30,741 bases of DNA. Source: a virus. The translations under genes and the position numbers were made by a program. The notes under the pieces were generated by a model. That model did no database searches, was not told where the DNA came from, and saw only the letters and a program-made list of their open reading frames with translations. The DNA lies in the IMG/VR virus record IMGVR_UViG_3300025815_000067, positions 1-30,741 of that record; one strand, given 5' to 3'. Below are positions 10,323 to 18,683 of the stretch, piece after piece (position 1 is the first letter of the stretch; each line of letters begins with the position of its first letter).

Positions 10323-10496
10323 ATGACGTGGCACAAGAAGTCGAGAATCGAGTCAAAAGAGGAGCTAATAGAGGAGATTAAGGTGGTCATCGAGTGCTTG
10401 CACGGGATACCATCAATGTCTGATAAGCTGCCTAATTACATATATAACCGCATAGAATCCATTATAGAGTATGTCAAAGAAAAAGGCTGGGACTAA
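10323..10496 (+). CDS. 57-residue hypothetical protein before the small terminase
   Basis: Begins ATG 10323, ends TAA 10494-10496. The product is helical and charged: MTWHKKSRIESKEELIEEIK, then VVIECLHGIPSMSDKLP and YIYNRIESIIEYVKEKGWD. It overlaps the start of the following gene by 26 bp in another frame. Codon use is ordinary, unlike the A+T-rich island just upstream. No function recognised; it opens the packaging operon. Confidence 0.5.
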   Translation: MTWHKKSRIESKEELIEEIKVVIECLHGIPSMSDKLPNYIYNRIESIIEYVKEKGWD

Positions 10497-11049
10497 CGAG
10501 TTTAGCCCTGAAGAGAAAGTGGCTATTCTGAGGGAAATTGAGGTGATGGGCAACGTGTCCAAAGTGGCTGAGAAATGGGGTGTGTCTAGACAGTCCATAT
10601 ATAACTGGCAAGCTCAGAGAAGAAACCTTGATGAGGAGATAATGATAAGGGAGCAAGCTAAGGACGTTGTGGCACGCTCAAAATTTGACCCAGAGCTCCT
10701 AAAAGACCTTGAGCAGTACCGTAACACTCTTCAGTTCATTGGAACGCTAGAGGAGAGAAAAGAGAAGATGTCGGCTAAAGTAGAGTTCATGCTCATTAAG
10801 ATTACGACCCTATTAGAGAATCATCCTGACCTAGATGAGATTCACCCGAAGGACTTGAGCAAGATAATGAAAGACCTTCATGACGTGCGTAAAGAGCTAA
10901 GTAATGAGCCGACCATTATTATTGAGTATAAGAACAAGCTCAGGGAACAAACCCTTCAGGTGCTTCAGGACTTCTTGGACTTAGACCAGCTAAAAGAGTT
11001 TGCGCATAGGATGGAAGCAATCGAAGCGGACTACGAGGTATTATCATGA
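10471..11049 (+). CDS. Probable small terminase subunit
   Basis: The 192-residue protein has an N-terminal helix-turn-helix (about 11-50: FSPEEKVAILREIEVMG, then VSKVAEKWGVSRQSIYNWQ) followed by a long, highly charged helical region, the usual build of a TerS DNA-recognition subunit that forms a ring at the packaging site. Its place upstream of the large terminase supports this, though three small genes intervene. HTH sequence alone would also fit a transposase-type or regulator protein. The TerS call rests on domain layout and position. The stop overlaps the next start by 4 bp. Confidence 0.65.
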   Translation: MSKKKAGTNEFSPEEKVAILREIEVMGNVSKVAEKWGVSRQSIYNWQAQRRNLDEEIMIREQAKDVVARSKFDPELLKDLEQYRNTLQFIGTLEERKEKMSAKVEFMLIKITTLLENHPDLDEIHPKDLSKIMKDLHDVRKELSNEPTIIIEYKNKLREQTLQVLQDFLDLDQLKEFAHRMEAIEADYEVLS

Positions 11050-11435
11050 TTAAGAAAGGCTACAAAAGATTCGTATCAATCTTTCTATATTCTGACTCAG
11101 AACCAAACGAGGTATTGATTGGGTTGTTACACGCTCTTATTTTACCGCCTGCAATGTTAGAGCTGGGTGACCCACACATGACCATGCAGATATGTGCTAG
11201 CATGGTGGGTTTCTTTCAGTTGTATGCAGTTCTGTATAGTGGTTCGCTCAGGGTTCGTAAATGGGCGGTGCAATTAGCTACACTTGTCGCTATTGGCACG
11301 GTAATGAACTACTACATGGAGGGTATGCTATCAGGCTCTCATTTTGGTTGGTTGTTAATTTTAATCTTTGCTATATGGAACCTAATAAGGGTAACAAAAG
11401 AAGAGCATCACTCGAAACAGAACTTTTCCTCTTGA
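11046..11435 (+). CDS. Membrane protein, first of a tandem paralogous pair
   Basis: The 129-residue protein has about four hydrophobic segments (near 24-38, 46-63, 74-88, 98-112) and a basic tail. It starts with IFLYSDSEPNEV and ends with HFGWLLILIFAIWNLIRVTKEEH. The next gene shares the same plan (MYSDSQPTEI ... HYGWLLFII ... SRLSREK), so the two arose by duplication. It overlaps the preceding gene by 4 bp. Position beside a membrane/coiled-coil gene and the terminase suggests an accessory or lysis-related membrane role, which is inference. Confidence 0.65.
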   Translation: MIKKGYKRFVSIFLYSDSEPNEVLIGLLHALILPPAMLELGDPHMTMQICASMVGFFQLYAVLYSGSLRVRKWAVQLATLVAIGTVMNYYMEGMLSGSHFGWLLILIFAIWNLIRVTKEEHHSKQNFSS

Positions 11436-11815
11436 AACTGAAAGCAATAAGGCTACGCCAAGTATGGATGTACTCCGACAGTCAACCCACTGAGATTGTG
11501 TTGGCTATGGCGAATATTTTTTTAGCTCCTTTGGCATTAAGTATTGAACTTGGAGCAAGTTTATTCTTTTCTTTGATACCGATGATGTCTGGTATATATC
11601 AGATAATCTGCGTGGCTTCTGATGACATTGACTGTAGAGTGCGAGCCTCTATGGTTACATTTGGGATTTATTCCGCATCGGCAGTTATGTACGCAATCAC
11701 CATAGGCTTCCCTAGTCCAACACACTATGGGTGGCTTCTATTTATAATCGCATCCTTTGGAAGTATGTCCAGACTTTCCAGAGAAAAAATCTATAGAAAA
11801 AACATCAATGGATAA
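11432..11815 (+). CDS. Membrane protein, second paralogue, TTG start
   Basis: I place the start at TTG 11432, overlapping the upstream TGA (TTGA). This gives 127 residues that align end to end with the preceding 129-residue paralogue: basic N-terminus, VWMYSDSQPTEIV, four hydrophobic stretches, THYGWLLFIIASFG, and a basic tail. The open frame continues upstream to 11261, but that part only overlaps the paralogue in another frame. ATG 11468 would cut off the basic start. The two may form a hetero-oligomer in the membrane. No named family recognised. Confidence 0.6.
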   Translation: MKLKAIRLRQVWMYSDSQPTEIVLAMANIFLAPLALSIELGASLFFSLIPMMSGIYQIICVASDDIDCRVRASMVTFGIYSASAVMYAITIGFPSPTHYGWLLFIIASFGSMSRLSREKIYRKNING

Positions 11816-12119: not shown

Positions 12120-12216
12120 CTTTAAGTGCGTCAGCCAACTGGCTGGTCACAAGCGTTGCCGTAAACAGTGCCGCCTTTGTAGGGAGCATTACGGTGGCGA
12201 AGCCAAAACAAAATAA
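12097..12216 (+). CDS. 39-residue Cys-rich mini-protein
   Basis: This ORF begins ATG 12097 with GAGAGGGAGA just before it, the strongest ribosome site of this block, and ends at 12216. It overlaps the previous gene by 23 bp and the large-terminase start by 23 bp. The product contains Cys11, Cys21, Cys25, Cys28 and His31 (CVSQLAGHKRCRKQC, then RLCREH), a plausible zinc site, and is strongly basic. It could bind nucleic acid or, by its start position, couple translation into terL. It may also be only a coupling ORF. Confidence 0.45.
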   Translation: MKDSNSNNFKCVSQLAGHKRCRKQCRLCREHYGGEAKTK

Positions 12217-13006
12217 TTGGTCTAATCTATTAGTCAACATAGTAGGACACGAGCCACCCCCTGACTCGTTAGACCTGCGTAATTCTTTTATCGAAAACTG
12301 TTTAGCTGACCAAGACGGTTTTAAGGTTACCCAAGCTGAGATTCATCACACGATGCAGAAGGGTATCTATGACTGGGAGCAACAGGCGCTATCCAAGAAC
12401 GCTCGCCTTAATGGCTTAATTAGAGCGCCCTACAACACGGGTAAGTCCCAACAAGTTCCTATTGGCTTGTCAGCATACATGACCACGAGAAAGCACGAGC
12501 TAGAGACCCTGATAGTATCTGCCGACGGTGGCATCTCTACGAAGAGAATACTGTCCCTAAGAGCCTTGTTCATGAGTGATATGTACCGCTACTGGTGCAG
12601 AGAGCACAACTTTAACCCTGTTGAGTTTGATAGAACGGATACAGGCTCTACGCAACGCATCATCGTTAAGAGCCGTAACCGCACGGGTAATCCCACGTAT
12701 GAGGCGTATGCCGTCCTCACGCAAACCACAGGTCAACGTGCTGGTGTGCTTATTCTTGATGACGTGTGCAATGACGAAGACAGAATATCTACGGCTCGTA
12801 GGGAAACCGTGTGGAACAAAGTATCGAACACATGGATTAAGCGTGTACACGATAAAGGTATTGTTTTAAGTGTGTGTACACCATACCATCCTAATGACGC
12901 TAACAGCCGTCTGATGAAATCGGGCATTTTTAACGTACTGCAAATATCGGTAAAAGAAGATAAGACTGGTTACAAGGTCGAGGAGTGGAACAACTTTGAA
13001 AAATAA
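12194..13006 (+). CDS. terL: Large terminase, ATPase half (split gene)
   Basis: The 270-residue protein (GTG start, GGGAG upstream) is the packaging ATPase alone: Walker A RAPYNTGKS (77-85), Walker B LILDD (186-190), and the coupling motif TPYHPNDANSRL (229-240), as in TerL. Intact TerLs continue into an RNase-H-like nuclease, but this frame ends after VEEWNNFEK. The nuclease half is a separate gene at 13755-14540, with two inserted genes between. The halves sum to 531 residues, a normal TerL length, so nothing seems lost. They must assemble as two chains, or the RNA is spliced. Confidence 0.8.
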   Translation: MAKPKQNNWSNLLVNIVGHEPPPDSLDLRNSFIENCLADQDGFKVTQAEIHHTMQKGIYDWEQQALSKNARLNGLIRAPYNTGKSQQVPIGLSAYMTTRKHELETLIVSADGGISTKRILSLRALFMSDMYRYWCREHNFNPVEFDRTDTGSTQRIIVKSRNRTGNPTYEAYAVLTQTTGQRAGVLILDDVCNDEDRISTARRETVWNKVSNTWIKRVHDKGIVLSVCTPYHPNDANSRLMKSGIFNVLQISVKEDKTGYKVEEWNNFEK

Positions 13007-13424
13007 AACGTGTAATACGTGTCACATCTCTAAGCCTCTATCTGAGTTTAATAGAGACAGTCACGCATCGGATGGTCATAGGAGTCGTTGTAGTAAGTGT
13101 AGAAACAAATCACGAAGAGAAACAGAAAAGAAAAAATATAACTACAAAGTATTTAGGGGGATGGTCTACTGCGTTGAGTGTGAAGGTTTTTATAAGATAG
13201 GAGTAACGTCTTATGGTATTCGTAAACGACTTCAATCAATACAAACGGGTAACCCATTTGAGGTAAAAATTGTTTGGGTCAAGCGCACGAATAACGTAGG
13301 TAAATACGAGCGTATGCTTCACCAACAGCTAAAAGATAATCACGTAAGGGGTGAGTGGTATGCTATCCCCAAAGTACTAGCCAAAGAACTTAAACATATA
13401 GTAACGCACGATGAAGAAAGCTAA
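12996..13424 (+). CDS. GIY-YIG homing-type endonuclease with zinc finger
   Basis: The 142-residue product (TTG start, GGAGTGG upstream) begins with a four-Cys zinc finger (C6, C9, C32, C35; T-C-N-T-C-H then RCSKC) of the kind common in phage mobile endonucleases. A GIY-YIG-like domain of the T5orf172/MUG113 type follows: MVYCVEC-EGFYKIGVT (56-71), R76/R78, LQTGNP-like IQTGNP (82-87), Glu105 and GEWY (119-122). It should nick or cut DNA, probably at an intact terL. It overlaps the terL ATPase stop by 11 bp. It is the likely agent of the terL split. Confidence 0.8.
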   Translation: MKNKTCNTCHISKPLSEFNRDSHASDGHRSRCSKCRNKSRRETEKKKYNYKVFRGMVYCVECEGFYKIGVTSYGIRKRLQSIQTGNPFEVKIVWVKRTNNVGKYERMLHQQLKDNHVRGEWYAIPKVLAKELKHIVTHDEES

Positions 13425-13758
13425 AGTAATAATGTACGCTCGTTTTGGGGTGAACATAGAACAGGACGAGGTAGACTACATAAAAACAAAGATGGAAGAG
13501 TTCCTAGAGATGATAGAAGCTGAACTTGTTGGTCAGAAGTGGGAAATACTAGGAAAGAATCAAAACTCTAAGGCGATACACGAAATTATAAAGCAATGCA
13601 GTAAGAATGAATGGGCAATCCTAACATACGACCTTAAAACACTACACCAGCACCATTCAGGTGCAATGTCCTTAATAGCGGAGGGTGACGATGTTGGTGT
13701 GCCCGTTTATTTCATTGAGGGTGGAGCCGTCATGCAAACTTTATTTAGTAGGATATGA
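13411..13758 (+). CDS. Resolvase-fold protein lacking catalytic serine
   Basis: The 115-residue protein resembles the N-terminal catalytic domain of serine recombinases: it opens KVIMYARFGVNIEQD (compare YaRvSt..Q), has AILTYDLKTLHQHHSG (compare the D.L.v..ldRLsR segment) and VGVPVYFIEGG near the end. The catalytic serine position holds Gly13 and the RLsR arginines are absent, so recombinase chemistry is unlikely. There is no DNA-binding domain. It lies between the GIY-YIG gene and the terL nuclease half, overlapping both (14 and 4 bp). Its role may be regulatory or structural; the fold assignment is by pattern only. Confidence 0.5.
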   Translation: MKKAKVIMYARFGVNIEQDEVDYIKTKMEEFLEMIEAELVGQKWEILGKNQNSKAIHEIIKQCSKNEWAILTYDLKTLHQHHSGAMSLIAEGDDVGVPVYFIEGGAVMQTLFSRI

Positions 13759-14540
13759 GAGAACCAGATAAGGTCTGGGACATTCCCCTATGGGAAACCA
13801 ATCACAGTAAACAACGGCTACTCCAAGAGGAAGCGATGGATTTTCTGTCGTATAAGTTGGGGTACGAAATGAGCGAGGAAACAGATGACCCCACGAGAAA
13901 GGCTTACAAACACTTTGATGGATACAATCACTACCCTGATGGGAATCTTACGGCTCTTGATTACGATAGTGGGCATCCTGTCTGGCTTTGTGCTGATTTC
14001 AACAGGTCTCCTCATTGTTGGGCTCTTCTCCAAGTTAAAAGAGCTCGTAATGGGCTTAAGCAGTATGTTATTTTCGATGAAATCTTCTCGAAAGAAGCTC
14101 TAACTACTGAACAAGCCTTAAAAGCAGTAGAATTACTCAATAAATGGGGTATTTCGAAGGTTTTATTGGCTGGGGACAACACCTCTAACCAAAAAAGTGG
14201 TAATTATGGTCGTGTAGGCAAAAATGACTGGGATTACGTGCGAGAAGTGTTCGATGAAAACGACATTTCGTATAAAAACGAGCTAGACATCCAAAATCCG
14301 AAGCGAAAAGTGCGAGTGGACAAGGTAAACAACGTAATTTATGCTGGAACCAACGGAGAAAGGCGTTTGTTAGTCAATACTCGCTGCGAACACGTCATAA
14401 AGGACTATATGTACTCCATAGTTGATGACAAAGGGCTAAAAATAGACAACGGAGACAGGGGACATATGTCGGATGCGACAGATTATGCTATTTGGCGTAA
14501 TGAGCGAGGCAGTAATGCCCCCATGTATGTGCTCCGCTAG
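13755..14540 (+). CDS. terL: Large terminase, nuclease half (split gene)
   Basis: The 261-residue protein begins with TerL sequence just past the ATPase domain (VWDIPLWETNHSKQRLLQEE) and then carries the RNase-H-like headful nuclease: CADFNRSP with Asp81, YVIFDEIFS with Glu109, LLAGDNTSN with Asp141, and GHMSDATDY with Asp240/Asp243. These acidic residues bind the two metals that cut concatemeric DNA. Its ATG overlaps the TGA of the preceding gene, with a short AGGAT nearby, so it is translated separately from the ATPase half. Function requires assembly with the 12194-13006 product, unless RNA splicing occurs. Confidence 0.8.
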   Translation: MREPDKVWDIPLWETNHSKQRLLQEEAMDFLSYKLGYEMSEETDDPTRKAYKHFDGYNHYPDGNLTALDYDSGHPVWLCADFNRSPHCWALLQVKRARNGLKQYVIFDEIFSKEALTTEQALKAVELLNKWGISKVLLAGDNTSNQKSGNYGRVGKNDWDYVREVFDENDISYKNELDIQNPKRKVRVDKVNNVIYAGTNGERRLLVNTRCEHVIKDYMYSIVDDKGLKIDNGDRGHMSDATDYAIWRNERGSNAPMYVLR

Positions 14541-14943: not shown

Positions 14944-15063
14944 ATGCCTCTTCAGCGTGGTTCTTCACCGAATATTATTCAGCAAAACATTCGACAACTC
15001 ATCAAAGAGGGTTATACGAGGCAGCAAGCCGTCGCTATAGCCCTACAATACTCAAGAAAGTAA
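14944..15063 (+). CDS. 39-residue conserved small phage protein
   Basis: Begins ATG 14944, stop TAA overlaps the portal start by one base (TAATG). The product MPLQRGSSPNIIQQNIRQLI ends KEGYTRQQAVAIALQYSRK. The pattern MPL.rG.S...i..Ni..li.eG....QAvAIAl is one I know from many short phage proteins near the head genes; function unknown. The close match supports it as a real gene despite its length. Confidence 0.65.
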   Translation: MPLQRGSSPNIIQQNIRQLIKEGYTRQQAVAIALQYSRK

Positions 15064-16622
15064 TGATAGACACCTCAAAGTTATATTCCGTATCAAAAGA
15101 CGCTGTCGAAGACATCGTAATGAAAGAAACTCGTCACCCGTATTATAGTGTGGTTCTTGACCGTGCTAAGATGATGAACAGCTGGTTTCAGGCAGAGTAT
15201 GATGAGTACACAGCCATTTCTAGCACCGTGTTTTCTGATAAGTCCTATATCATTGACCAGAGCAGCATAGAGTCGGATGAGGAGTACAGAGAGCGTTTAT
15301 CCAGAATGAAGTTGTTTCCGCTAGAGCAGAAGTTCTTTTCAGCCCAGCAGCGTATCTATGACGAGAACAACGTCAACAGAATGTACCCTGAAAACAAAGA
15401 TTTTTGGAAGTGGAAAGAGTCTAACTTTGATGATGCAGGCTGTTCCATTACCGAGTTTTACCGAGATAAGGTTCTCTTCGTAAAAGAGGTTCTTGGATTC
15501 GGTGCGGTAGTAACCGACCTTATGATGGATGGTAGCGGAAATCCTGTTACCGACACAGACGGCAACGTAGTTCCTTATAACTTTGTTGTGCGTCCCCACG
15601 AAATATGGAACTTTCAAGTGAGACAAGGCGCTCTTACGTTGCTTGTTACTCGTCAAATGTATTACGAACTAGACAACGTTAAAAAGCATAAGTGGACTGC
15701 CTACACACCTGAGTACATCTGCGTGTACATCGAAGAGAACGGGAAGAAACAAAAGACGTTGGAAATACCTAATCCATTTGGTGAGGTTCCAGCCACGCTA
15801 CTCAAGGGTCAGACGGATGCTAACAGTTCGTTCATCGTAGGTAAGCCACGTAGATATTGCCTAAAAGGTATGTACCTAGCCTCTTCTGAGTTGTTCTATG
15901 ACCTAAAGAAGGGTTCTGAACTGTTTGGACACCCTATTCCTGTTCTCACAGATTCCATTGTTCGGTCTTTAGCTGGTGTCGCTGATGATGACCAGTACGA
16001 CTCTCGAACCATCAAAGAGGGTGTAGGTATGGCTATTATCATTCCTGATGACCAGCAAATACCTAGTAATATGTTATACCAAGCAGACATGCAGGGTCTT
16101 CAGCACCTTAGAGACGTAATTTTTGGTGATTTAATGTCGCTCATCTTCTCTATGGCTCAGGTTCGGGACAAGTCCATTGTTAAGAGCAATGTGTCGGGCT
16201 CCGCTAAGAGATTTGATAACGTAGAAGAACAAGGGCTACTAGCGTCTACAGCGATGGACATGGAAATGATAGAGATGCAGGTTCTAAGAAGAATGGCTAA
16301 GGTTCGTGACGAGGATTACGAGGGATACGGTGTAACCTACTCGAAGCATTATGACCTGTCTAGTGCCGATGAGATATTCCAAGACATTACCGAAGGTATG
16401 CAGTATCACGCAATGTCTCTACCTCTCATTAAGAAGCTAACTGCGGAATATATGCGCAAGCGCTCTATGCCTCAAGAGGATATTGAAGAGGTAATGCAAC
16501 ACTTTAATGAGTATGGTATGCCTAAAACAGCTACTGACCTAAGAAATTTAGTGGATATTCTACCACAAGAAGAACTTCAACGCCAAGCACAAGTTGGTAT
16601 TGAAACACAAAGCGAGCAATAA
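15063..16622 (+). CDS. Portal protein
   Basis: The 519-residue protein sits between the terminase and scaffold genes and has the size and style of a siphovirus portal: a helical N-terminus with FPLEQKFFSAQQRIYDEN, a central beta-rich wing (FVVRPHEIWNFQVRQGALTL), a region with GKPRRYCLKGMYLASSELFY, and a helical C-terminal part with MEMIEMQVLRRMAKV and DEIFQDITEGM. Twelve copies would form the ring at the head vertex through which DNA passes and to which terminase docks. No single motif identifies it, so the call rests on length, order and sequence style. Confidence 0.8.
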   Translation: MIDTSKLYSVSKDAVEDIVMKETRHPYYSVVLDRAKMMNSWFQAEYDEYTAISSTVFSDKSYIIDQSSIESDEEYRERLSRMKLFPLEQKFFSAQQRIYDENNVNRMYPENKDFWKWKESNFDDAGCSITEFYRDKVLFVKEVLGFGAVVTDLMMDGSGNPVTDTDGNVVPYNFVVRPHEIWNFQVRQGALTLLVTRQMYYELDNVKKHKWTAYTPEYICVYIEENGKKQKTLEIPNPFGEVPATLLKGQTDANSSFIVGKPRRYCLKGMYLASSELFYDLKKGSELFGHPIPVLTDSIVRSLAGVADDDQYDSRTIKEGVGMAIIIPDDQQIPSNMLYQADMQGLQHLRDVIFGDLMSLIFSMAQVRDKSIVKSNVSGSAKRFDNVEEQGLLASTAMDMEMIEMQVLRRMAKVRDEDYEGYGVTYSKHYDLSSADEIFQDITEGMQYHAMSLPLIKKLTAEYMRKRSMPQEDIEEVMQHFNEYGMPKTATDLRNLVDILPQEELQRQAQVGIETQSEQ

Positions 16623-17489: not shown

Positions 17490-18683
17490 ATGGCAATTAA
17501 TAGCAATTTCAATATATACGAACCAGAGGCGTTTGTAGAGGTAGCTCTAGCTAACCAATATCCAGACCGACCAATGGTATCTAAAGCCGTTACTAACGTA
17601 GCTGGCGCATCTATCGAAGGACTCGTTGCAGCTCGTAACAAGTCTGTAAACATCACTCGTGCCGTAAAGCCTAGTGGTTCCCCTTCTTCTTACTCAGGTT
17701 CTTATAGTCTAGGAACTCCTGATGCTAGCGAAGAAACGCTAACTATCAACAAGCACTACTATGCTGGTTTCAGCATCGACAAAGCTGACCAAAAGTTTGC
17801 GCTTCCTGACTTAGTACAACAGCACTTTGTACCAAGACTACACCAGCTTATTGACCAAATCAATGCTGACGTAAAAGTAGAAGCTCGTAAGGCTTTTGAA
17901 GTAGCTTTCGCTGACAACAACACTGACTCTACTGTAATGGACGACAATGACCTTGCAGAAGCTCGTAGAATTATGGCTTCTCGTAAGTTCACTACGGATA
18001 ACTTAATGATGGTTATTGACCCATTCGTAGAGAAAGACTTGACTACCCTAAACATCTTCCAACAAGCTAACACTCGTGGAGATGCTGGTATTCAGTTAGG
18101 TGGAGCTATGGCTCGTGCGTATGGTTTCGACTTCTTTGTAGACAATCAAGGTTCTAGCCACACTGCGGCTACGGTAACTGACGCTACATTAGCTGCTGAC
18201 GAAGCTATCGGGCAAACTGAGTTAACCATTGACAATGGTTCTGGTGGTGCTGCTACTGTATCTTTAGCTGAGGGTGACATCGTTACTTTCGGTTCTGCTA
18301 AAGGCACGGATGACTTCTACACTGTTGAGTCTCAAACTGGAACTGTATTGACTCTTAAAGAGCCATTACGTGCCGCTGTTGCTAACAACGCTACTATCAA
18401 CCCAGTTGATATTGCTTCAGGCGACACTGGACGTGAGCAGTTCTTCTACGACCCATCTGCCCTTGCCTTAGTAACTGCTGTAATGCCTTCAGTGGATAGC
18501 GGTTCAGGTTCAGGCGTTCGTAGAGCTGCTGGTTTCGAGCCAATGAACAACGTAAACTACACGTTGACTGTAGAAGAAACCAAGTCAGGCGCTGACATCC
18601 TTATCGAAGTACTATACGGAGTTAAGGTATTCAGACCAGACTTAGGTGGACGATACATTCGTGGTAACGTAGCTAAGGCGTAA
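17490..18683 (+). CDS. Major capsid protein, HK97 fold (P22-coat-like)
   Basis: The 397-residue protein begins MAINSNFNIYEPEAFVEVAL, like P22-type coat proteins, and has the expected sequence of strands and helices: KSVNITRAV, INKHYYAGFSIDKADQ, the long spine helix (about 107-150: DLVQQHFVPRLHQLIDQIN), then IMASRKFTTDNLMMVIDP. A Gly/Thr-rich insert (about 224-300) could be an I-domain-like insertion as in P22 coat. It should form the icosahedral shell. The leader is A/T-rich without a Shine-Dalgarno sequence, and a strong terminator follows, as for a highly expressed gene. Confidence 0.85.
   Translation: MAINSNFNIYEPEAFVEVALANQYPDRPMVSKAVTNVAGASIEGLVAARNKSVNITRAVKPSGSPSSYSGSYSLGTPDASEETLTINKHYYAGFSIDKADQKFALPDLVQQHFVPRLHQLIDQINADVKVEARKAFEVAFADNNTDSTVMDDNDLAEARRIMASRKFTTDNLMMVIDPFVEKDLTTLNIFQQANTRGDAGIQLGGAMARAYGFDFFVDNQGSSHTAATVTDATLAADEAIGQTELTIDNGSGGAATVSLAEGDIVTFGSAKGTDDFYTVESQTGTVLTLKEPLRAAVANNATINPVDIASGDTGREQFFYDPSALALVTAVMPSVDSGSGSGVRRAAGFEPMNNVNYTLTVEETKSGADILIEVLYGVKVFRPDLGGRYIRGNVAKA

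Follow-up and report, generated by a model that had tools for sequence, protein, structure and literature searches.

The large subunit of the phage terminase (TerL) is normally one protein, and viral packaging models, T4 gp17 above all, rely on ATPase-nuclease domain movement within a single TerL chain. Interruptions of the terL coding sequence are nevertheless well documented, and the known ones are spliced introns or inteins: those of CB7 (PMC7344957), ICP1 (PMC10448857), the Bastillevirinae (PMC11878797), IBB_35, Mic1 and SIOphi. An unspliced split is described for another essential enzyme, NrdA of Aeromonas phage Aeh1, which is made as two chains with a homing endonuclease gene (HEG), mobE, adjacent; there the split is attributed to the HEG (PMC7344957, PMC10448857). 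Split DNA polymerase genes, again a different enzyme, are reported for MEP401-like OM43 phages, in a paper that does not settle the mechanism (PMC10580990). No published unspliced split terminase was found in the open-access literature.

In the window, by which we mean the entire 30.7-kb linear virus record analysed here, the terL coding sequence is interrupted as it is in CB7, ICP1, SIOphi, IBB_35 and Mic1. In those phages, however, splicing restores one protein, whereas the chains of the window have their own stop and start codons and no splicing element was detected. A sequence-only reading had described the locus as a large terminase encoded as two proteins, with a GIY-YIG/zinc-finger endonuclease and a resolvase-like protein between them. 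Its ORF coordinates (ATPase end at 13006, nuclease ATG at 13755) are all right by our ORF check, and the gene overlaps that it put at 4-14 bp measure 11 bp, 14 bp (GIY-YIG and middle genes) and 4 bp (Table 1). The surroundings of the TerL halves are those of a normal head module (TerS-like, portal, capsid), and in relatives with contigs long enough to show it, the HTH/TerS-like gene likewise precedes the ATPase gene. Two look-alike ORFs for small membrane proteins (11046-11435 and 11261-11815), mutually overlapping, lie between the TerS-like and ATPase genes.

Table 1. Positions of the split TerL locus and of its neighbours in the window.
Feature	Position	Strand	Details
HTH protein, probable small terminase (TerS)	10471..11049	+	HTH_Tnp_1 4.2e-7; TerS PHROGs weakly matched
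TerL ATPase chain	12194..13006	+	270 aa, GTG start; phrog_38, E 7e-21
Walker A	~12425-12448	+	APYNTGKS
Walker B	~12752-12766	+	ILDDV
Coupling motif	~12878-12898	+	TPYHPND
ATPase/GIY-YIG overlap	12996..13006	+	11 bp
Optional GIY-YIG gene	12996..13424	+	142 aa, TTG start; Pfam MUG113 1.3e-14, T5orf172 4.4e-10
Middle gene, resolvase-like	13411..13758	+	115 aa; predicted serine-recombinase fold without catalytic residues
ATGA stop/start overlap, middle gene to nuclease gene	13755..13758	+	4 bp
TerL nuclease chain	13755..14540	+	261 aa, ATG start; phrog_10250, E 2.3e-7
Portal protein	15063..16622	+	phrog_145 1.6e-18
Capsid	at 17490		phrog_283

Both halves are recognized as TerL in a PHROG search. 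Besides phrog_38, the ATPase half matches the TerL family phrog_4758 (2.6e-14), and the phrog_10250 family matched by the nuclease half is a TerL nuclease cluster; when aligned to the nuclease domains of intact TerLs, the nuclease half gives an hhalign value of 2.4e-19. Pfam reports no TerL domain in either half, and a PDB sequence search returned no relatives of note for either. The Walker A, Walker B and TPYHPND motifs previously assigned to the ATPase half are indeed present and conserved in the listed relatives, with a TPYHPND-type coupling motif in 74/74 listed junction sequences. Likewise, the acidic residues proposed at nuclease positions 81, 141 and 240/243 are the aspartates D81, D141, D240 and D243, which are invariant in 64/64 distinct listed relatives and in the 55-62 % identical sequences of a sister group described below. 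Median pairwise dN/dS is 0.02-0.05 for the ATPase gene, 0.04-0.06 for the nuclease gene and ~0.2 for the middle gene. Both TerL halves are thus under strong purifying selection (dN/dS 0.02-0.06) and keep their motifs, and no dead fragment was detected.

The halves sum to 514-531 aa, and intact TerLs in the class matched by the ATPase half have 516-577 aa, which bears out the normal TerL length claimed for the window's total of 531. Alignment to intact TerLs places the junction downstream of the coupling-motif region, immediately ahead of the LW-containing linker, and shows no residues lost there; the linker segment (IPLWE...) leading into the putative RNase H-like domain belongs to the nuclease chain. 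The AF2 model of the nuclease chain has a pLDDT of 52 and is too weak for use alone; its best VIA Z scores, 6-7, include retroviral integrase cores, and no terminase is prominent among them, which rules nothing out. In 12 contigs of up to 36 kb, possibly incomplete, that were searched with phrog_2 and phrog_38 for a second TerL elsewhere in the phage, the only hit was the ATPase half, matching phrog_38, and no TerL of the phrog_2 type turned up.

IMG/VR was probed separately with each half, and each probe retrieved at least 80 loci, mostly on the same contigs. The locus records, at least 246 in number and many of them overlapping, reduce to at least 74 distinct junctions that are 84-100 % identical to the halves. 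Every listed locus covering the junction (74/74 distinct junctions) has separate ORFs for the two halves, and the nuclease start codon is ATG in all 74. Among the listed loci, the gap between the halves is 324-328 bp where it holds the middle gene only and 730-848 bp where it holds the GIY-YIG and middle genes; the GIY-YIG gene is present at 22 and absent from 52 of the 74 listed distinct junctions. Where the GIY-YIG gene is lacking, the ATPase and middle genes share exactly 19 bp (52/52 listed). The nuclease gene overlaps the preceding gene by 4 bp in 71/74 listed junctions and by 14-17 bp in the remaining three, and the 4-bp overlap persists even though the protein encoded by the preceding gene drops to 36-40 % identity. 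The sequence-only reading had looked to relatives with an intact terL for the exact insertion boundary; no such relative, and no fused TerL, is among the IMG/VR matches listed for either half. Because the half-probes would equally catch a fused gene, this absence is informative within the sampled relatives, though a fused, intact TerL of the group may lie beyond the matches listed. Genome-contig scans gave no cellular or prophage relatives, and no isolated-phage relatives of the portal, capsid or middle gene were found.

A sister group was reached by scans for Walker A and for the variant TPYHPQDA. Six of its contigs (L285, L289, L292, L344, L345 and L346) are 55-62 % identical to both halves, and all six are split; L284 and L291 are partial members, while L350, which came from a nuclease-motif scan, holds the nuclease side only. 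The cargo between the halves is varied: L285 has a 92-aa relative of the window's middle protein, L292 a lone 76-aa ORF and L289 a gap of equal size, while the ORFs measure 71 and 52 aa in L344, 60, 259 and 51 aa in L345, and 76, 259 and 59 aa in L346. The 60-76-aa ORFs of this group appear mutually related at 18-91 % identity, the most distant one weakly. Despite the differing cargo, the sister nuclease genes begin 4 or 14 bp inside the ORF before them in all cases read. Since the overlap is kept with differing cargo, the nuclease gene has a start of its own, probably coupled to whatever precedes it. The 259-aa ORF, a phrog_8198 member of unknown function (L345:2445-3224 and L346:405-1184), is absent from the close relatives L289 and L292, and the 52-aa membrane-like ORF of L344 (phrog_1374; L344:2876-3034) directly precedes the nuclease half.

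With the split found in 74/74 listed junctions and in six sister contigs, the description of this TerL as two proteins holds well beyond the window. Its recurrence in every relative examined places the arrangement far beyond chance; it is the fixed state of a whole lineage and not a single accident.

The terL introns of CB7, ICP1 and the Bastillevirinae cited above lend weight to a different account, namely that the halves are exons of one TerL flanking a self-splicing group I or II intron, with the middle genes as intron ORFs. We consider this highly improbable. A group I intron joining the halves, the case that the sequence-only reading had set against itself, has no counterpart in the data: there is no relevant Rfam match in the window or in seven relatives at gathering or relaxed thresholds, Rfam models being known to miss some introns. 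At the GIY-free loci, moreover, the 324-328-bp gap is coding throughout, covered by a middle gene that overlaps both halves, and in every listed close relative the ATPase chain ends at its own stop and the nuclease chain begins with ATG. The cargo also differs between the clades, so that a common intron core is unlikely. As for inteins, neither half carries extra sequence at its termini, and the alignment of the halves to intact TerLs runs from end to end. An intron- or intein-split terL is hence improbable, with no Rfam match, a fully coding gap and no extra termini.

The halves do not point to one and the same kind of TerL. The isolated phages that match the ATPase half have Zobellviridae and mycobacteriophage-type TerLs, and those that match the nuclease half are of a different class, led by hairong and ctIqW946. 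In whole-record PHROG scans, GP100, 521E56-1, PA11, ctsHD2 and Dori have phrog_38 but not phrog_10250, while hairong, ctIqW946, LP.2, 1.240.O and S-H1 have phrog_10250 but not phrog_38. With five-member profiles, hhalign gives the ATPase half 6.8e-16 against the phrog_38 class and 0.38 against the phrog_2 class; for the nuclease half the values are 2.4e-19 against the phrog_2/phrog_10250 class and 0.024, in the wrong region, against the phrog_38 class. When the domains are cut apart, the ATPase profile reaches 34-55 bits with one class but falls below zero with the other, and the nuclease profile scores 17-47 bits solely on the class opposite to the ATPase's; the best scores of shuffled controls are 4.6 and 6.2 bits. 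Neither class is matched by both halves. Given that each class was picked by one half, what counts is that the other half fails to match, and the mismatch between the nuclease half and phrog_38 is weaker evidence than the positive match, since TerL nuclease domains diverge fast. Such divergence, together with incongruent ATPase and nuclease trees, is reported for TerL in general (PMC12846349).

Among the nearest described proteins, the Zobellviridae-type TerLs of GP100 and PA11 (phrog_38) share the motifs of the ATPase half and include its best isolated-phage match, at 26 % identity, but they are single proteins of 533-535 aa whose nuclease domain is unmatched by the window's nuclease chain. 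Conversely, the TerLs of Pseudomonas phage hairong, Vibrio phage LP.2 and Synechococcus phage S-H1 (phrog_2/phrog_10250) have an RNase H-like domain that matches the nuclease half, but they are single proteins of 407-450 aa whose ATPase domain is unmatched by the window's ATPase chain. No isolated phage with this ATPase/nuclease pair was found. An unsampled single-chain TerL with the same domain pair may exist as an ancestor or relative; the pair may also have been assembled by domain exchange instead of by the cutting of one gene.

We conclude, with a probability of roughly 0.83, that the locus encodes a two-chain large terminase, its ATPase and nuclease translated separately from overlapping genes of a packaging operon whose junction is old, fixed and tolerant of cargo. 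Nuclease translation would be coupled to termination of the gene before it, the nuclease chain would dock on the ATPase chain through its linker segment, and the two chains would in all likelihood come together next to each other on the portal, doing the work of one TerL. The ATPase/nuclease junction would now be an inter-gene site that tolerates cargo. The motor is probably a two-chain terminase, and since the halves resemble different TerL families, its ancestry may be chimeric. A more specific version is tentative, its odds a little short of even: a heteromeric motor held together non-covalently, with the ATPase from one TerL family and the nuclease from another, which predates the split of the 55-60 % identical clades and whose gap serves as a dock for swappable accessory genes.

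The chief rival is that the ATPase chain alone is the motor, the nuclease being a free-standing maturation enzyme that acts at packaging ends and is not stoichiometric with it. The ATPase and nuclease activities of TerL are separable, as domain work on T4 gp17 showed, and two independent enzymes would be consistent with chains that resemble different TerL families. Yet the nuclease chain carries the interdomain linker segment of an intact TerL, and both genes are always in one overlapping operon among the listed loci; we regard this rival as unlikely. It is doubtful, too, that the GIY-YIG homing endonuclease and the resolvase-like passenger split an intact terL in the manner of mobE and nrdA in Aeh1. 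The endonuclease itself is as previously described, with MUG113 and T5orf172 matches and N-terminal Cys pairs, and HEGs of the T5orf172 type are common near terL (PMC10448857). Where the GIY-YIG gene has inserted, it takes the place of the final ATPase codons and the initial codons of the middle gene, with the EEWNN end of the ATPase kept. In one relative (L035:4161-4673), another GIY-YIG copy, 46 % identical, occupies the same ATPase/middle junction, and a sequence starting ATGGAACAA is repeated on both sides of it. Its place at the junction, the frequency of such HEGs near terL and the L035 copy would suit an HEG-made split, but the 52 listed junctions without the gene are split nonetheless, the sister group is split around mostly unrelated cargo, and the best matches of the halves lie in different TerL families, so that the evidence does not establish an HEG cutting one intact gene in two. 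Nor is it supported that the passengers made the split. The HEG-free split relatives refute this GIY-YIG gene as its present cause, and the gene is not needed for it; an older, vanished HEG could have made the first cut. In this respect the locus differs from Aeh1 NrdA, for most listed relatives here are split without an HEG, and the split has persisted in two divergent clades. With its catalytic-domain match and its patchy presence at a conserved site, the GIY-YIG gene is probably an ordinary, optional homing endonuclease inserting at a favoured site, the 3' end of the ATPase gene.

The remaining rival assigns a structural part to the middle gene, whose product would be an obligatory third terminase subunit bridging the two chains. 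The sequence-only reading had called this protein resolvase-like, and for the fold this stands. The match of the window's protein to Pfam Resolvase is weak (0.012), but 17/26 family members match, the best at 1.3e-5, and its AF2 model (pLDDT 76) superposes on an IS607-like TnpA with a VIA Z of 12.1 (2.4 A rmsd over 97 residues); the protein is thus predicted to have the fold of a serine-recombinase catalytic domain. A recombinase activity does not follow. R68 and R71 are conserved in 0/68 members and position 10 is Ser in 16/68; with the catalytic Arg missing, the protein can hardly be an active recombinase. The bridging role draws on the presence of the gene in all 246 listed records holding both halves of the main family and not elsewhere among those listed (no free-standing copies among 80 listed of 95 relatives), on its constraint (dN/dS ~0.2), and on the sister group, where L285 has a homologue and other contigs have a different small constant protein of 60-76 aa. 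Against it, the middle protein evolves much more quickly than the halves (median distance 0.51 vs 0.07-0.08) and does not track them: flanks 94 % identical occur with middle proteins 36 % identical, and the reverse also occurs. An obligatory bridge is accordingly improbable, and a swappable accessory fits better; within the two-chain terminase, this fast-changing and catalytically dead protein might be an accessory or adaptor of the motor, which is a guess. The pattern of replacement is cassette-like, at one fixed site, with exchange between lineages far faster than that of the flanks.

If the two-chain reading is true, a covalent ATPase-nuclease link is unnecessary, and the two chains are natural, ready-made parts for testing force transfer between the domains. 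It would also be a rare instance in which a machine essential to a phage persists as two chains with no splicing to join them. The split TerL bears as well on the exchange of TerL domains between families, which discordant ATPase and nuclease trees have already suggested (PMC12846349). Because the halves point to different families, annotation or taxonomy based on TerL could call such genomes devoid of TerL or misplace them. Finally, PHROGs contains half-length clusters annotated as 'terminase large subunit' (4758, 10250, 7579, 5653 and 6672), whose members may be fragments of intron-split genes or genuine two-chain terminases, so that an ATPase and a nuclease in separate ORFs may occur elsewhere as well.
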